Below are positions 26,129 to 33,748 of a DNA stretch of 64,000 bases, one piece after another. This DNA comes from Toxorhynchites rutilus septentrionalis (lineage: Eukaryota; Arthropoda; Insecta; Diptera; Culicidae). Numbering within the stretch: the stretch's first letter is position 1; each line of letters opens with the position of its first letter. The notes under the pieces are model-generated. The model searched no databases, was not told the DNA's origin, and saw only the letters and a program-made list of their open reading frames with translations. A program made the position numbers and the translations under genes. Location of the stretch: positions 165,849,328 to 165,913,327 of the forward strand of contig NC_073745.1 in NCBI RefSeq assembly GCF_029784135.1, read 5' to 3'.

Positions 26129-26473
26129 CACCCTTATTCTCATTTACGGCCGTATCCGTATATTGATTCGTCGGATACGATACGTCGTCAAAGAAAAAGC
26201 TATCCTCATTTACGGCCGTATTTCTGTGTACTAGATTTGTTTGGTAAACTGTTTTATCGACATCCTTGACAGATGTTTTTCATTACCAATGTTGTTTTGA
26301 TTTGGGATTCGCAGTCTTCGTGTAAAATATTGTGAAATGTGGATTAAATTTGGAGGATAAGGACAATTTTGCTCTATTTGAAGGTATCTTTTATTTAATG
26401 TCTACGCTCGCAGGCGGTCAACGTTTTACTTCCTCATGGAGAAATATACTAACAGATTAACAGATCAACAAAC

Positions 26474-27727
26474 GTGTTCGCCTGTTCGGATCGCCCAACC
26501 GTGATATACCGCTCTAACCACAAGCTGGTTTCCTCAAATGAAGGAAGTAAATCTTATGTGCTCACTTAATGTCGAAGTTTATCAGGACAGTTTGGCTCTT
26601 GCACCCAACATTCGGTTATTCTTGGTACAATTGATGAGATTCAAAAGTTGCACTTCGAACGGTAACGATCTTCAGGACTCGAGTGGCCCGACTCTTTCGA
26701 GACAAAGCGCGTCTTCTCTGACGACAAATGTAACTTCCTTGAGCAAGATGGGTCTGCTTAAGCCAGGACCCAGCAATGCCGAGTTTGGCCAAGAGCTGAG
26801 ATTCACAATCTACTTATCATCGATCAGATTACTTTCGAGGTGCTACATGCACATCAATTCATGCAAACTGAGTACATTATGCCACTGATTTCGACAGAGT
26901 TGGGTAATGATTCAGAGACCCAATGTAGGATGAATGGACCCCTCACTCGAGTTAGCGAAAAGGAAATCAAGGGCGCCTGCTATTCCCTCGTTGAGTTCAA
27001 CAGTCAGTTGTTTTTGAACAGGCAACTTCATTTTGGTTGGATATTTAGTGCGATCTATCACGCTGCTGCAGTACAAGAAAATGGAAGGTAGTTTTGAGGA
27101 GATCGCTCGCGACTAACAACTAAATTGGATGACAGCAGTAGAAATATTAGATAACGATGCCTTCCTTGAGGCGGATAGCAACCAAAATCTATTTGTTTAC
27201 CTAAAAGATGGGTAAGTAGGGTTTCCGTAGCTCGGTTTATCATACGAACAATTTTTCTATTTATTTGAAGGGCCGCAACAACGGAAGACGAAAAACAGCA
27301 AATGCCAGAGGTAGCTCAATTCCATCTCGGTGATATGGTGAATGTATTCTGCCAAGGTTCACTCGTAATGCAAAACATTGGTGAGCGAACGACGGCGACA
27401 ACGGGTTGTGTGCTATTTGGCATGGCTATAGGTCTGGTCACACAAATACCACCCGATTATTATGAATTGTGAATTTCTTCGAAAGTTACAGGAAAAATTT
27501 ACTGACACAATCAAATCTGTTGGCAAGATTCTTTTTCTTCTTTTTTGGCTTTGAGAGCCTTAAAACTTTTCAGTTCATTCGCCTCTAATGTTGGCAAGAT
27601 TGAGTATTCGTATTGGCGTAGTTTTCACACCGAAATGAAAACGGTACGTTGCGAGGGATTTATTGATGGAGACCTTGTGGAAAGTTTTCTGGATTTAAGT
27701 CGGGGAAAAATGTACAAAGCTGCCTAA
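26474..27727 (+). pseudogene. DDB1: DDB1 fragment in element A
   Basis: The plus strand encodes the C-terminal half of damage-specific DNA-binding protein 1, the CUL4 adaptor. It includes SDRPTVIYRSNHKLVSS, NLKEVNLMCSLN, a HAHQFMQTEY segment, EVAQFHLGDMVNVFCQGS, and the end VGKIEYSYWRSFHTEMKT then FIDGDLVESFLDLSRGKM. A 59-bp intron with GTAAGT donor and TTTGAAG acceptor remains at 27212-27270, so the source was genomic DNA. Frameshifts, small deletions and the insertion at 27531-27589 break it. It cannot make DDB1. Confidence 0.9.
27531..27589 (-). mobile_element. 59-bp hairpin retroposon, copy 2
   Basis: Flanked by a 12-bp duplication GTTGGCAAGATT (27519-27530 and 27590-27601) and absent at the homologous site in copy C. 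On the minus strand it starts with the AGAGGC hairpin and ends A-rich, as a retroposed small RNA would. It is shared by copy B at 31875-31924. Confidence 0.75.
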
Positions 27728-28291
27728 CCTAACACGAAGAAATCAGAATGTCTAGTGTTGATCATTATTGTTGAATCGGTGCTATCAGTTGTTTTCTTGC
27801 ACAAATGCTGGAAAAACGAGAAGTTACATATTTTTCCTAAAAAATGATAAAGAAAACAACTCAATCAATAATCTATTCAGCTGCACGAACAATAGATCGA
27901 GCTAAGCTCATGAATTTTAGCACTATTCGCGAAACTAAATTTTATATTTGTGTGATAATAAAGAAACTCCAGTTTACTACAAAATTCATACAACATCTCA
28001 TTAGTTCGATTCGAATAGTCATGTACGGTCGGTCTCTCAAAACTATTTAAGAGTTTTATCGAAACTTTATTACTTTTGGAATAGGGCTACGTGTATAGGT
28101 TTGCTGCTCTTTGGGTCGGTAGATATCGACCTGATTGCGCTGACGCAGTGATTCCTTGTATTCTCTGTAAGAGGAGTATTGAAAGACGATATGAGATACA
28201 ATTTGAGTGAAATATAGTGATCAGATATACCTGTAAATTTCGATATTTCCTAGCGTTCGCATATTTGCATCGGACCTGGCACTATCAAGTG

Positions 28292-29525
28292 TCAAATCAC
28301 CTTCTGGATGTCGACACTGCGAATGAATAAATAGGTTAATTGAATTTGAACTTCTCCGAATGCGATCATATTACTTATTCTTATTAGACAGCTTCTTCCG
28401 CTCGAGCTGATCCTACAGTGCGATGTCTCCTCCTCAAGCGAACCTATTATGTCATCACCATCGTGGCTTCCACCACTGAGCAGACCTGAAAAACCATTTG
28501 CGCCTGCAGATGACAACAGAGGAACCACATTAGAATGACTAGCTGTACCTGTCCCTGCTGTTGGTGAAACTGAAGCTGGCGGTGGTTTCCTATCGAAGCC
28601 TGTGTGCATTGGAATGGGCGTTCTCTCGTAACATGTAGGAATTGATTCGTAGAATTCGATGCTTTCTAAGAACTTCTAGCGCTCATGGGACCACCACGTT
28701 TCTCTTGATACAATTTTTGCGTGACGGAGGGTAGTTGCTCCTGCAGACGGCTTTGCAAAGAAATATGTACCATTAGGATATTTGTCACCGGCCGGTTAGC
28801 AGTTTGACTAAGAACCAAAAGACTTCGCTGAATGTTTAGACAAATCGATTGTACGAATTGCTGCACGGCTGCATTTGGTTCACCTTTGTTAATCACAGCG
28901 GCAGCAATTCGACTGTTCTGATCACAAAGCACCTTGCGTTGCTCCTGCAGTTTTTCTACGGAGCAAAGCGTTCTGAATTATGGATTGGGTATGGAACTGA
29001 AGCTCACGTTGGGATGGATAGTGCGGCTGTTGGGTTGATTGTTGCTGTTGTTGCATTTGTGGTGGATCAGTTGCATTCCCAACGTTGTTTTTCATGAGCA
29101 ATCGGCGCAAAATATCGGTCTGTTAGTTTTTGTGCTGAAAATTTGCATTAAAAATTGTTGCTGAGCAATCATATTACTGTTGACTTGATTTTGTGCTAGC
29201 ATGTCGACTAATCGAAAGATACCCCATTCAACGCCGTATCTTCATCGAATCCACAAAGTTTGATTGTGTCCAGGCGAGAGGTAGGTCCTGCCGAAACTCA
29301 TTCTGGCTCTTCCTCGTTTGCTGTATCTTGTTGTCATTGTTCATCTGCACTTATGTAGATTTTCACGGTAACATGTTGGTTCCGGTTGCTGAACTCGTAA
29401 TTGCGACAGAACCTTGCTGCAAAATTTGACACAATAGGGCCATCTGCTGCTACAGGACGGCGGTTGCAGAGCAGGGATTTTCTCAATGCCAACAATGACT
29501 GGTCCATAGCGAATAGAGCGGACAC
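28292..29525 (-). pseudogene. Gln-rich host gene fragment in element A
   Basis: Minus-strand pieces in order: a block with FAMDQSLLALRKSLLCNRRP (29525-29334); LLMKNN then a Gln run and YPSQRELQFHTQSI (29110-28922); DQNSRIAAAVIN through NRPVTNILMVHISLQSRLQ (28932-28666); and HTGFDRKPPPAS with Gly/Ser-rich tail (28609-28292). Pieces are separated by frameshifts and stops. Three copies share the sequence, so it was once coding. The host gene was not identified; an eIF4E-transporter-like protein is one possibility, weakly held. Confidence 0.6.
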
Positions 29526-31874: not shown

Positions 31875-31924
31875 ATTAGAGGCGAATGAACTGAAAAGTT
31901 TTAAGGCACTCATAGCCAAAAAAG
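31875..31924 (+). mobile_element. Hairpin retroposon, copy in element B (shared with A)
   Basis: The same insertion as 27531-27589 in reverse orientation, flanked by AATCTTGCCAAC at 31863-31874 and 31925-31936. It therefore predates the A/B duplication. It is a few bases shorter in the A-rich end. Confidence 0.75.
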
Positions 31925-33001
31925 AATCTTGCCAACAGATTTGATTGTGTCAGTAAATTTTTCCTGTAACTTTCGAAGAAATTCACAATTCATAAGAATC
32001 GGGTGGTATTCGTATGACCAGACCTATAGCCATGCCAAATAGCACACAACCCGTTGTCGCCGTCGTTCGCTCTCCAATGTTTCGCATTACGAGTGAACCG
32101 TGGCAGAATACATTCACCATATCACCGAGATGGAATTTAGCTACCTCTGACATTTGCTGTTGTTCGTCGTCCGTTGTTGCGGCCCTTCAAATAAATAGAA
32201 AAATTGTTCGTATGATAAACCGAGCTACGGAAACCCTACTTACCCATCTTTTAGGTAAACAAATAGATTTTTGCTGCTATCCGCCCCAAGGAAGGCATCG
32301 TTAATTTTTCTACTGCTGTCATCCAATTTAGTTGTTAGTCGCGAGCGATCTCCTCAAAACTACCTTCCATTTGCTTGTACTGCAGCAGCGTGATAGATCG
32401 CATTAAATATCCAACCAAAATGAAGTTGCCTGTTCAAAAACAACTGACTGTTGAACTCAACGAGGGAATAGCAGGCGACCTTGATTTCCTTTTCGCTAAC
32501 TCGAGTGAGGGCTCCATTCATCCTACATTGGGTCTCTGGATTTACCAGTGCTGTGCCGACGATGTGATAAGTATTCGAATCATTACCCAACTCTGTCGAA
32601 ATCAGTGGAATAATGTACTCAGTTTGCATGAATTGATGTGCATGTAGCACTTCGAAAGTAATCTGATCGATGATAAGCAGATTGTGAATCTCAGCTCTTG
32701 GCCAAACTCGGCATTGCTGGGTCCTGGCTTAAGCAGACCCATCTTGCTCAAGGAAGTTGCATCTGTCGTCAGAGTAGACGCGCTTTGTCTCGAAGGAGTC
32801 AGGCCACTCGAGTCCTGAAGATCGTTACCGTTCGAAGTGCAGCTTTTGAATCTCATCAATTGTACCAAGAATAACCGAATGTTGGGTGCAAGAGCCATAC
32901 TGTCCTGATAAACTTCGACATTAAGTGAGCACATAAGATTTACTTCCTTCATTTGAGGAAACCAGCTTGTGGTTAGAGCGGTATATCACGGTTGGGCGAT
33001 C

Positions 33002-33059
33002 ACGTTTCACGTTTCTTTGTTTTTAAGAGGCTTTAAACTTTGCAGTTCATTCGCCTCCA
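33002..33059 (-). mobile_element. 58-bp hairpin retroposon, copy 3
   Basis: Flanked by TTGGGCGATC at 32992-33001 and 33060-33069. Copy A has the uninterrupted site near 26490. The minus strand reads a GAGGC...GCCTC hairpin, then an A-rich end. This insertion is private to element B. Confidence 0.8.
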
Positions 33060-33748
33060 TTGGGCGATCCGAACAGGCGAACACGTTTGTCGTCGGAAGT
33101 GACCGGAACGTTTTCAGAATAGTCAGCTGGTCTCCAGCGTAACTTTTTTTAGCCTGTTAATCTGTTAGTATATTTCTCTTTGAGGAAGTAAAACGTTGAC
33201 CGCCTGCGAGCGCACACATTAAATAAAAGATACCTTCAAATAGAGCAAAATTTTCCATATCCTCCAAATTTAATCCACATTTCACAATATTTTACACGAA
33301 GACTGCGAATCCCAAAGCAAACTGCGAAGGATGCAAACATAGATATCGGTCCCAAAACCTACTGCAACCAGTTTCGAACGGCTGGAGCGTGTGATAGTGC
33401 TGATGGAAAAGAACGTTATTATTGTGAACATGTGCAATTAGCCGTTTCATACCTCTTTTGCACCAACTTGTCTGCTTTAATTGCGATGTAATGTCGTAGG
33501 CAGTTCCACACAAGCTGGCATGAATTTGACGCGACTACGCCAATGCGCTTATCATCCGGCGGATTCCATTCACATACTATTGATTTATTATCACATTAGA
33601 TCAATCGTGCTGTCATTGGAGTAACACGACAAATTTGCCTATAATCGACATTCGCACAACAAAATGTCTGTAGGAAATCGGAAACTTCGGTTTTATTTCT
33701 GTTTCTTCCTCTGATAAAGACTGTACACAATGCTCCTAAAGCGGACCT

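Follow-up and report, generated by a model that had tools for sequence, protein, structure and literature searches.

The window analysed here is a stretch of 64,000 nucleotides of the mosquito Toxorhynchites rutilus septentrionalis (contig NC_073745.1, C2 below; C2:165849328-165913327), whose genome assembly contains 902.6 Mb in 514 contigs. At 26129-33739 it shows two elements, A and B, which face each other and carry pieces of the host gene DDB1. The question raised by this locus is whether the inverted repeat is a source of hairpin RNA acting on DDB1, as a preliminary description suggested, or a consequence of transposition. That observation is sound and its interpretation is too narrow. 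The explanation that we favour, with a confidence somewhat better than even, is that A and B are distinct copies of one terminal inverted repeat (TIR) transposon family with captured DDB1 and 4E-T DNA, and that an RNA running through both would likely form a hairpin of about 2.7 kb, from which Dicer-2 is predicted to produce small interfering RNAs (siRNAs) whose main targets would be young family copies, with DDB1 as a secondary target.

Geometry of the inverted repeat

The fragment between 24000 and 36000 contains 11 inverted pairs, 10 of which link A with B (26296-29931 versus 30107-33321). The six main alignments, which in A are located at 26296-26463, 26489-26913, 26913-27723, 27726-28620, 28855-29098 and 29773-29931, total 2,704 bp with 96.2% identity as a length-weighted sum. 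When the whole of A is aligned with 30107-33739 by MAFFT and the indel edges are counted, the identity is 92.4% over 3,077 columns. Two stretches of A, 28621-28854 and 29099-29772, have no counterpart in B. The opposite orientation and the loop of about 175 bp had been described correctly; the paired arms measure about 2.7 kb instead of the proposed 3 kb, and B does not end at 33748, as had been stated, since it is interrupted after 33739 and resumes in three further pieces (Table 1). The loop sequence is found at 99% identity in at least 39 other genomic places among the matches listed.

A and B as separate members of a transposon family

Dispersed copies of the family carry the terminal inverted repeats CACCCTTAT...ATAAGGGTG and 3-bp target duplications. 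Identical 3-bp flanks are present in 11 of the 16 copies with both ends readable, a count that omits those in which an end is lacking or changed: A, L009, L010, L012, L017, L020, L025, L026, L027, and elements 2 and 3 of the L011 array. The five copies without identical flanks are B, L013, L016, L019 and the first element of L011. EnSpm/CACTA transposons have ends that start with CAC and show a 3-bp target duplication. The A/B family is alike in these end and target features, as they are generally described; no transposase was found among 14 stretches of A, B and the neighbouring element C scanned against Pfam or PDB, no autonomous partner was identified, and the family is not assigned to a superfamily here. 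At least 91 DDB1-bearing places remain after merging 94 that were chosen by hand among the matches listed; the host gene was set aside, as were pieces that are short or overlap others. They crowd in the middle of the chromosomes; on C2, for example, 29 of 34 lie within 150-210 Mb. Because copies are 99% and more identical, the family appears to have been recently active.

The empty site of A is seen in another copy of its host retrotransposon (L047), which has a single ATT at that position. A is nearest to L009 and L010, with 99.2-99.6% identity, and groups with both in trees; its closest copies are elsewhere in the genome and B is not among them. Compared tile by tile, B shows a core that fits the young subfamily and two ends that fit an older one (L024, L025, L027). 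Of the two trees that hold B, one places it with L015 (support 0.94) and the other gives it no resolved position. Its flanks are unmatched: on the inner side the retrotransposon stops at GACTTG, and its next 1.5 kb are absent from the window; on the outer side, element C starts at its own position 34. B is read as recombined or rearranged. Three later insertions interrupt it, all of them outside the paired arms, and the one at 33740-42046 contains a long element with long terminal repeats (LTRs) of 517 bp that are 99.8% alike, which we take to be BEL-like. An origin of the pair by a single inverted duplication is ruled out by the nearest copies of A elsewhere, by A's own empty site and by the mosaic of two subfamilies in B.

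Neighbouring and facing copies in the genome

At least four facing pairs with gaps of up to 175 bp (56, 56, 100 and 175 bp) are present among 43 right ends, and one more pair has a gap of 1,789 bp. The right ends are the 43 matches obtained with the 40 candidates scored out of 130, so that the number of pairs is a lower bound, and right ends alone reveal facing pairs only. The number of facing pairs expected within 200 bp is 0.0018 under uniform placement and 0.018 when each end is shifted within 100 kb, and the simulated pair numbers reach maxima of 1 and 2, respectively, in 5,000 draws each. An additional pair, with a gap of 117 bp, is found in L019. Among the 91 merged DDB1-bearing places, 15 neighbour pairs lie within 10 kb, versus 0.1 expected if placement were uniform. 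Closeness of copies is the rule and inversion is not favoured; a general preference for inversion was not found, with seven of these pairs in opposite and eight in the same orientation.

In the facing pair on C1, 41 bp of the loop are 90% like the element, so this pair was apparently inserted within an older copy. The array on C3 (L011, L044; C3:203.62-203.63 Mb) contains four copies, the third of which is the centre of an apparent palindrome, and a 56-bp spacer that is present twice forward and once inverted. Since the same 56-bp sequence is found in both orientations, the two facing pairs of this array may have a common origin.

Predicted hairpin and candidate targets

For a read-through RNA, folding predicts a hairpin whose arms measure about 2.7 kb. 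In the predicted fold of 26129-33748, 2,747 of the 3,274 pairs join A with B; 40 A-B helices continue for at least 21 bp without interruption and sum 2,311 bp. The two arms have 1,364 21-mers in common. Of these, 91 are found in the host DDB1 locus, 71 within coding stretches that were set by hand from open frames, so the proposed sequence basis for small RNAs matching DDB1 exists. The controls gave no matches, either with reversed arms or, for all arm 21-mers, with 7.5 kb of unrelated sequence from the window. The 19 high-scoring family loci, taken as whole loci of 7-10 kb, show a median of 862 common 21-mers (range 5-1303), and 17 of them are above 91. The 4E-T gene on C1 contains none of the common 21-mers and its relative on C3 contains five, and 4E-T was rejected as a target in trans. 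Given the family median of 862 versus 91 for DDB1 and none for the C1 4E-T gene, siRNAs, if made, would likely match young transposon copies first and DDB1 second, and DDB1 would be matched about as well as old family copies. The suggested action in trans on DDB1 keeps its basis in matching sequence and loses its framing, since A and B are two members of a family with at least 91 DDB1-bearing places, whose young copies match the common 21-mers far better than DDB1 does.

Captured host genes

The intact host DDB1 is located on a different chromosome, at C1:75.88 Mb; its long open exons continue up to the C-terminus, and it has the N-terminal propeller domain. The DDB1 cargo, confirmed in both arms, spans from an exon upstream of the large host intron to past the stop codon. 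In A, B and C the smaller introns are retained, the intron-exon junctions are common with the host and the identity is 75-94%; the large host intron is not present in the transposon copies. The second gene, previously described as Gln-rich, is 4E-T: PF10477 is above the cut-off in element C and is also found in A, and 4E-T stretches are present in both A and B, oriented opposite to the DDB1 cargo. The 4E-T gene of C1 (C1:141.22 Mb) shows long open frames, and its likeness to the cargo is no more than 68-72% over 69-82 bp; a 4E-T relative with an open frame of 234 amino acids (L049, C3:182.11 Mb) is nearer to the cargo, with 78-90%. Several 4E-T places have no nearby DDB1 place among the DDB1 matches listed, which hints that 4E-T was captured before DDB1. 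An internal piece of A and B, at about 28069-28623, shows an open frame of 127 amino acids and is possibly a third captured gene; neither of the two host loci contains a match to it, and its longest frame gives no Pfam family.

The ratio of nonsynonymous to synonymous substitutions (dN/dS) of the DDB1 cargo was calculated by the NG86 procedure, which discards shifted codons and is biased toward conserved stretches. It ranges against the host from 0.18 to 0.23 for one open exon and from 0.22 to 0.40 for 26 copies, between subfamilies from 0.54 to 0.87 (13 pairs), within subfamilies from 0.37 to 1.64 (five pairs: A-B, A-L009, A-L014, A-L017 and L025-L027), and among C-type copies from 0 to 1.15 where it is defined. 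The DDB1 cargo may thus have been under some constraint in the past.

Comparison with known systems

The Pack-TIRs of animals (Tan et al., 2021; PMC8277862) have TIR ends around duplicated host gene DNA, are multicopy and have their parental gene elsewhere. The A/B family shows the same features: TIRs with target duplications, and intron-bearing DNA of an identifiable parental gene, the DDB1 of C1. In the excerpted parts of that survey of 100 reference genomes, no Pack-TIR is reported from the insect reference genomes, one multicopy family (Ssk-FB4) is reported in fly populations, four multicopy cases belong to frogs and alligators, and facing pairs are not mentioned; unlike these surveyed elements, the family described here is a large insect family with two captured genes. 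An action of captured genes on their parental genes through small RNAs is already suggested there (PMC8277862).

Mu killer of maize is, similarly, an inverted transposon copy, proposed as the source of a long hairpin that silences its family in trans; it is a rearranged transposase-bearing element, and short antisense transcripts are favoured over the long hairpin (PMC3440606, excerpt). In contrast, the arms of A and B hold host-gene cargo, and the pair is known from its sequence alone. Hairpin RNA (hpRNA) loci of Drosophila are inverted repeats whose near-identical arms match a gene elsewhere, and their transcripts, siRNAs and gene targets have been shown (PMC10292708, excerpt). The A-B pair has two of these features, a long-duplex inverted repeat and stretches of 21 nt that match a distant gene perfectly (91 in DDB1), both read from the DNA. 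In mosquitoes, a Dicer-2 study of Aedes aegypti describes gene-derived endogenous siRNAs as few and with minor effects, and adds that long hairpins acting in trans may have escaped it (PMC12076837, excerpt); for Anopheles gambiae, hairpins are given as a general siRNA source and the excerpt describes no such locus (PMC4423592). Facing pairs of gene-capturing elements as hairpin sources were not found in searches of the open-access literature on captured genes, hairpin RNA, Mu killer, Pack-MULE and DDB1, nor was a transposon family of this kind among the papers listed, with no search aimed at 4E-T.

Gene-capturing TIR transposons are considered rare in insects, and the family described here shows near-identical copies, DNA captured from two genes and more facing pairs than expected by chance. 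If the facing pairs make siRNAs, ordinary transposition can give birth to a hairpin RNA locus directed at a host gene, and the A-B pair offers a good test case for such a birth.

Explanations for the facing pair

According to the favoured explanation, the family would often land in or beside its own copies and would thus have produced the facing pair, with recombination or rearrangement at B during its origin. The pair would be transcribed across both arms, the hairpin RNA would be cut by Dicer-2 into siRNAs, and these would act mainly on young family copies, with DDB1 as a passenger target. An inverted pair formed by chance could in this way silence its own family, as proposed for Mu killer. 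The transposon is multicopy, captures genes and often has its copies side by side; the hairpin is likely a by-product of this, and a testable candidate source of RNA that silences the family. Several points weigh against this explanation: two of the four facing pairs are in the C3 array and may lack independence; the neighbours within 10 kb include as many as eight pairs in the same orientation against seven in the opposite one; the fold, of -5345 kcal/mol, was run without a shuffled control; no promoter was identified for the pair; and the family may be silenced by PIWI-interacting RNAs (piRNAs) instead. Furthermore, two of the 19 family loci (25 and 5 common 21-mers) and element C (78) are below the 91 of DDB1, and silencing of old copies would therefore not be expected to exceed that of DDB1.

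The transposon-rich surroundings, the clustering of copies (15 neighbour pairs against 0.1) and the repeated interruption of B are also consistent with an inert transposon nest, in which copies came face to face through local insertion and rearrangement and give neither transcript nor small RNAs. Nothing direct counts against it, apart from the expectation that long paired transcripts, if made, would enter the siRNA pathway; we consider it possible, although less likely than not. Retention of the pair as a functional hpRNA locus, whose siRNAs tune host DDB1 in trans, is decidedly unlikely. The 91 common 21-mers of the DDB1 locus, 71 of them coding, argue for it, as does the existence of gene-targeting hpRNA loci in Drosophila simulans (PMC10292708, excerpt), but the young family copies match the common 21-mers far better, the A-B pair is not singled out by anything from about 90 places with DDB1-like pieces among the matches listed, and B was later interrupted by three insertions, none of them within the arms. 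A wider role, in which a gene-capturing transposon repeatedly facing its own copies builds hairpin RNA factories whose siRNAs silence the family and also dose DDB1, an essential host gene, so tying transposon control to the DDB1 level, is unlikely. It would be very improbable that the pair is an assembly artefact made of collapsed or misjoined family copies: the family is highly repeated and the two flanks of B share no target duplication, but the junctions of A are exactly at the transposon ends, its empty site is seen in the other retrotransposon copy, the same facing arrangement is found at other loci, and the later insertions of B bear their own flanking duplications.

Features of the window

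Table 1. Location of the elements, captured gene pieces and associated features in the window.
Feature	Position	Strand	Remarks
Element A, first arm, full-length TIR transposon copy, 3,803 bp	26129..29931	+	Ends CACCCTTAT...ATAAGGGTG
Target site duplication ATT, left of A	26126..26128	.	L047 shows the empty site, with a single ATT
Target site duplication ATT, right of A	29932..29934	.	Same empty-site comparison (L047)
Loop between A and B	29932..30106	-	175 bp, non-LTR retrotransposon coding region
Open reading frame (ORF) of the loop's retrotransposon, split by A	24785..26143	-	Reverse transcriptase domain PF00078
DDB1 cargo of A, with exons, introns and 3' flank	26377..28071	+	76-94% to host DDB1 locus
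DDB1-derived part of B	31295..33670	-	75-91% to host DDB1 locus
4E-T cargo of A, minimum extent	28937..29336	-	PF10477 at 29238-29336; 71% over 82 bp to C1 4E-T gene
4E-T-derived stretch of B	30394..30474	+	68% over 81 bp to C1 4E-T gene
Element B, main piece, second arm	30107..33739	-	Young core about 30746-33321, ends of old subfamily
Element B, second piece	42047..42148	-	Beyond nested insertion 33740-42046
Element B, third piece	42479..42517	-	Beyond 330-bp insert with GTAAATGA at its flanks
Element B, far end, terminal repeat	50421..50482 (start approximate)	-	Beyond second retrotransposon with ATGACGACGTATC at its flanks
Element C, older family copy abutting B	50483..57188	+	Without first 33 bp; interrupted 54313 to about 56630
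DDB1 ORF in element C	51206-51835		

No bases separate the end of B from the start of C (50482/50483), and C lacks its first 33 bp; the arrangement is as if B had entered the terminal repeat of C. A 50-bp sequence is present at non-equivalent sites of A and B (27541-27590 and 33013-33062, 82% alike); its neighbourhood in A is not present in host DDB1, and pieces also match L049. The surroundings of the pair in the window are rich in transposons. The retrotransposon family of the loop shows a regular spacing on small contigs (C4, C25, C80; L047), as if in a tandem array; on C25, for example, it is found at 33615, 43378 and 53140, in steps of about 9.76 kb. At 14789-15359, the window contains ORFs built from a tandemly repeated peptide unit, which correspond to a short tandem repeat array.

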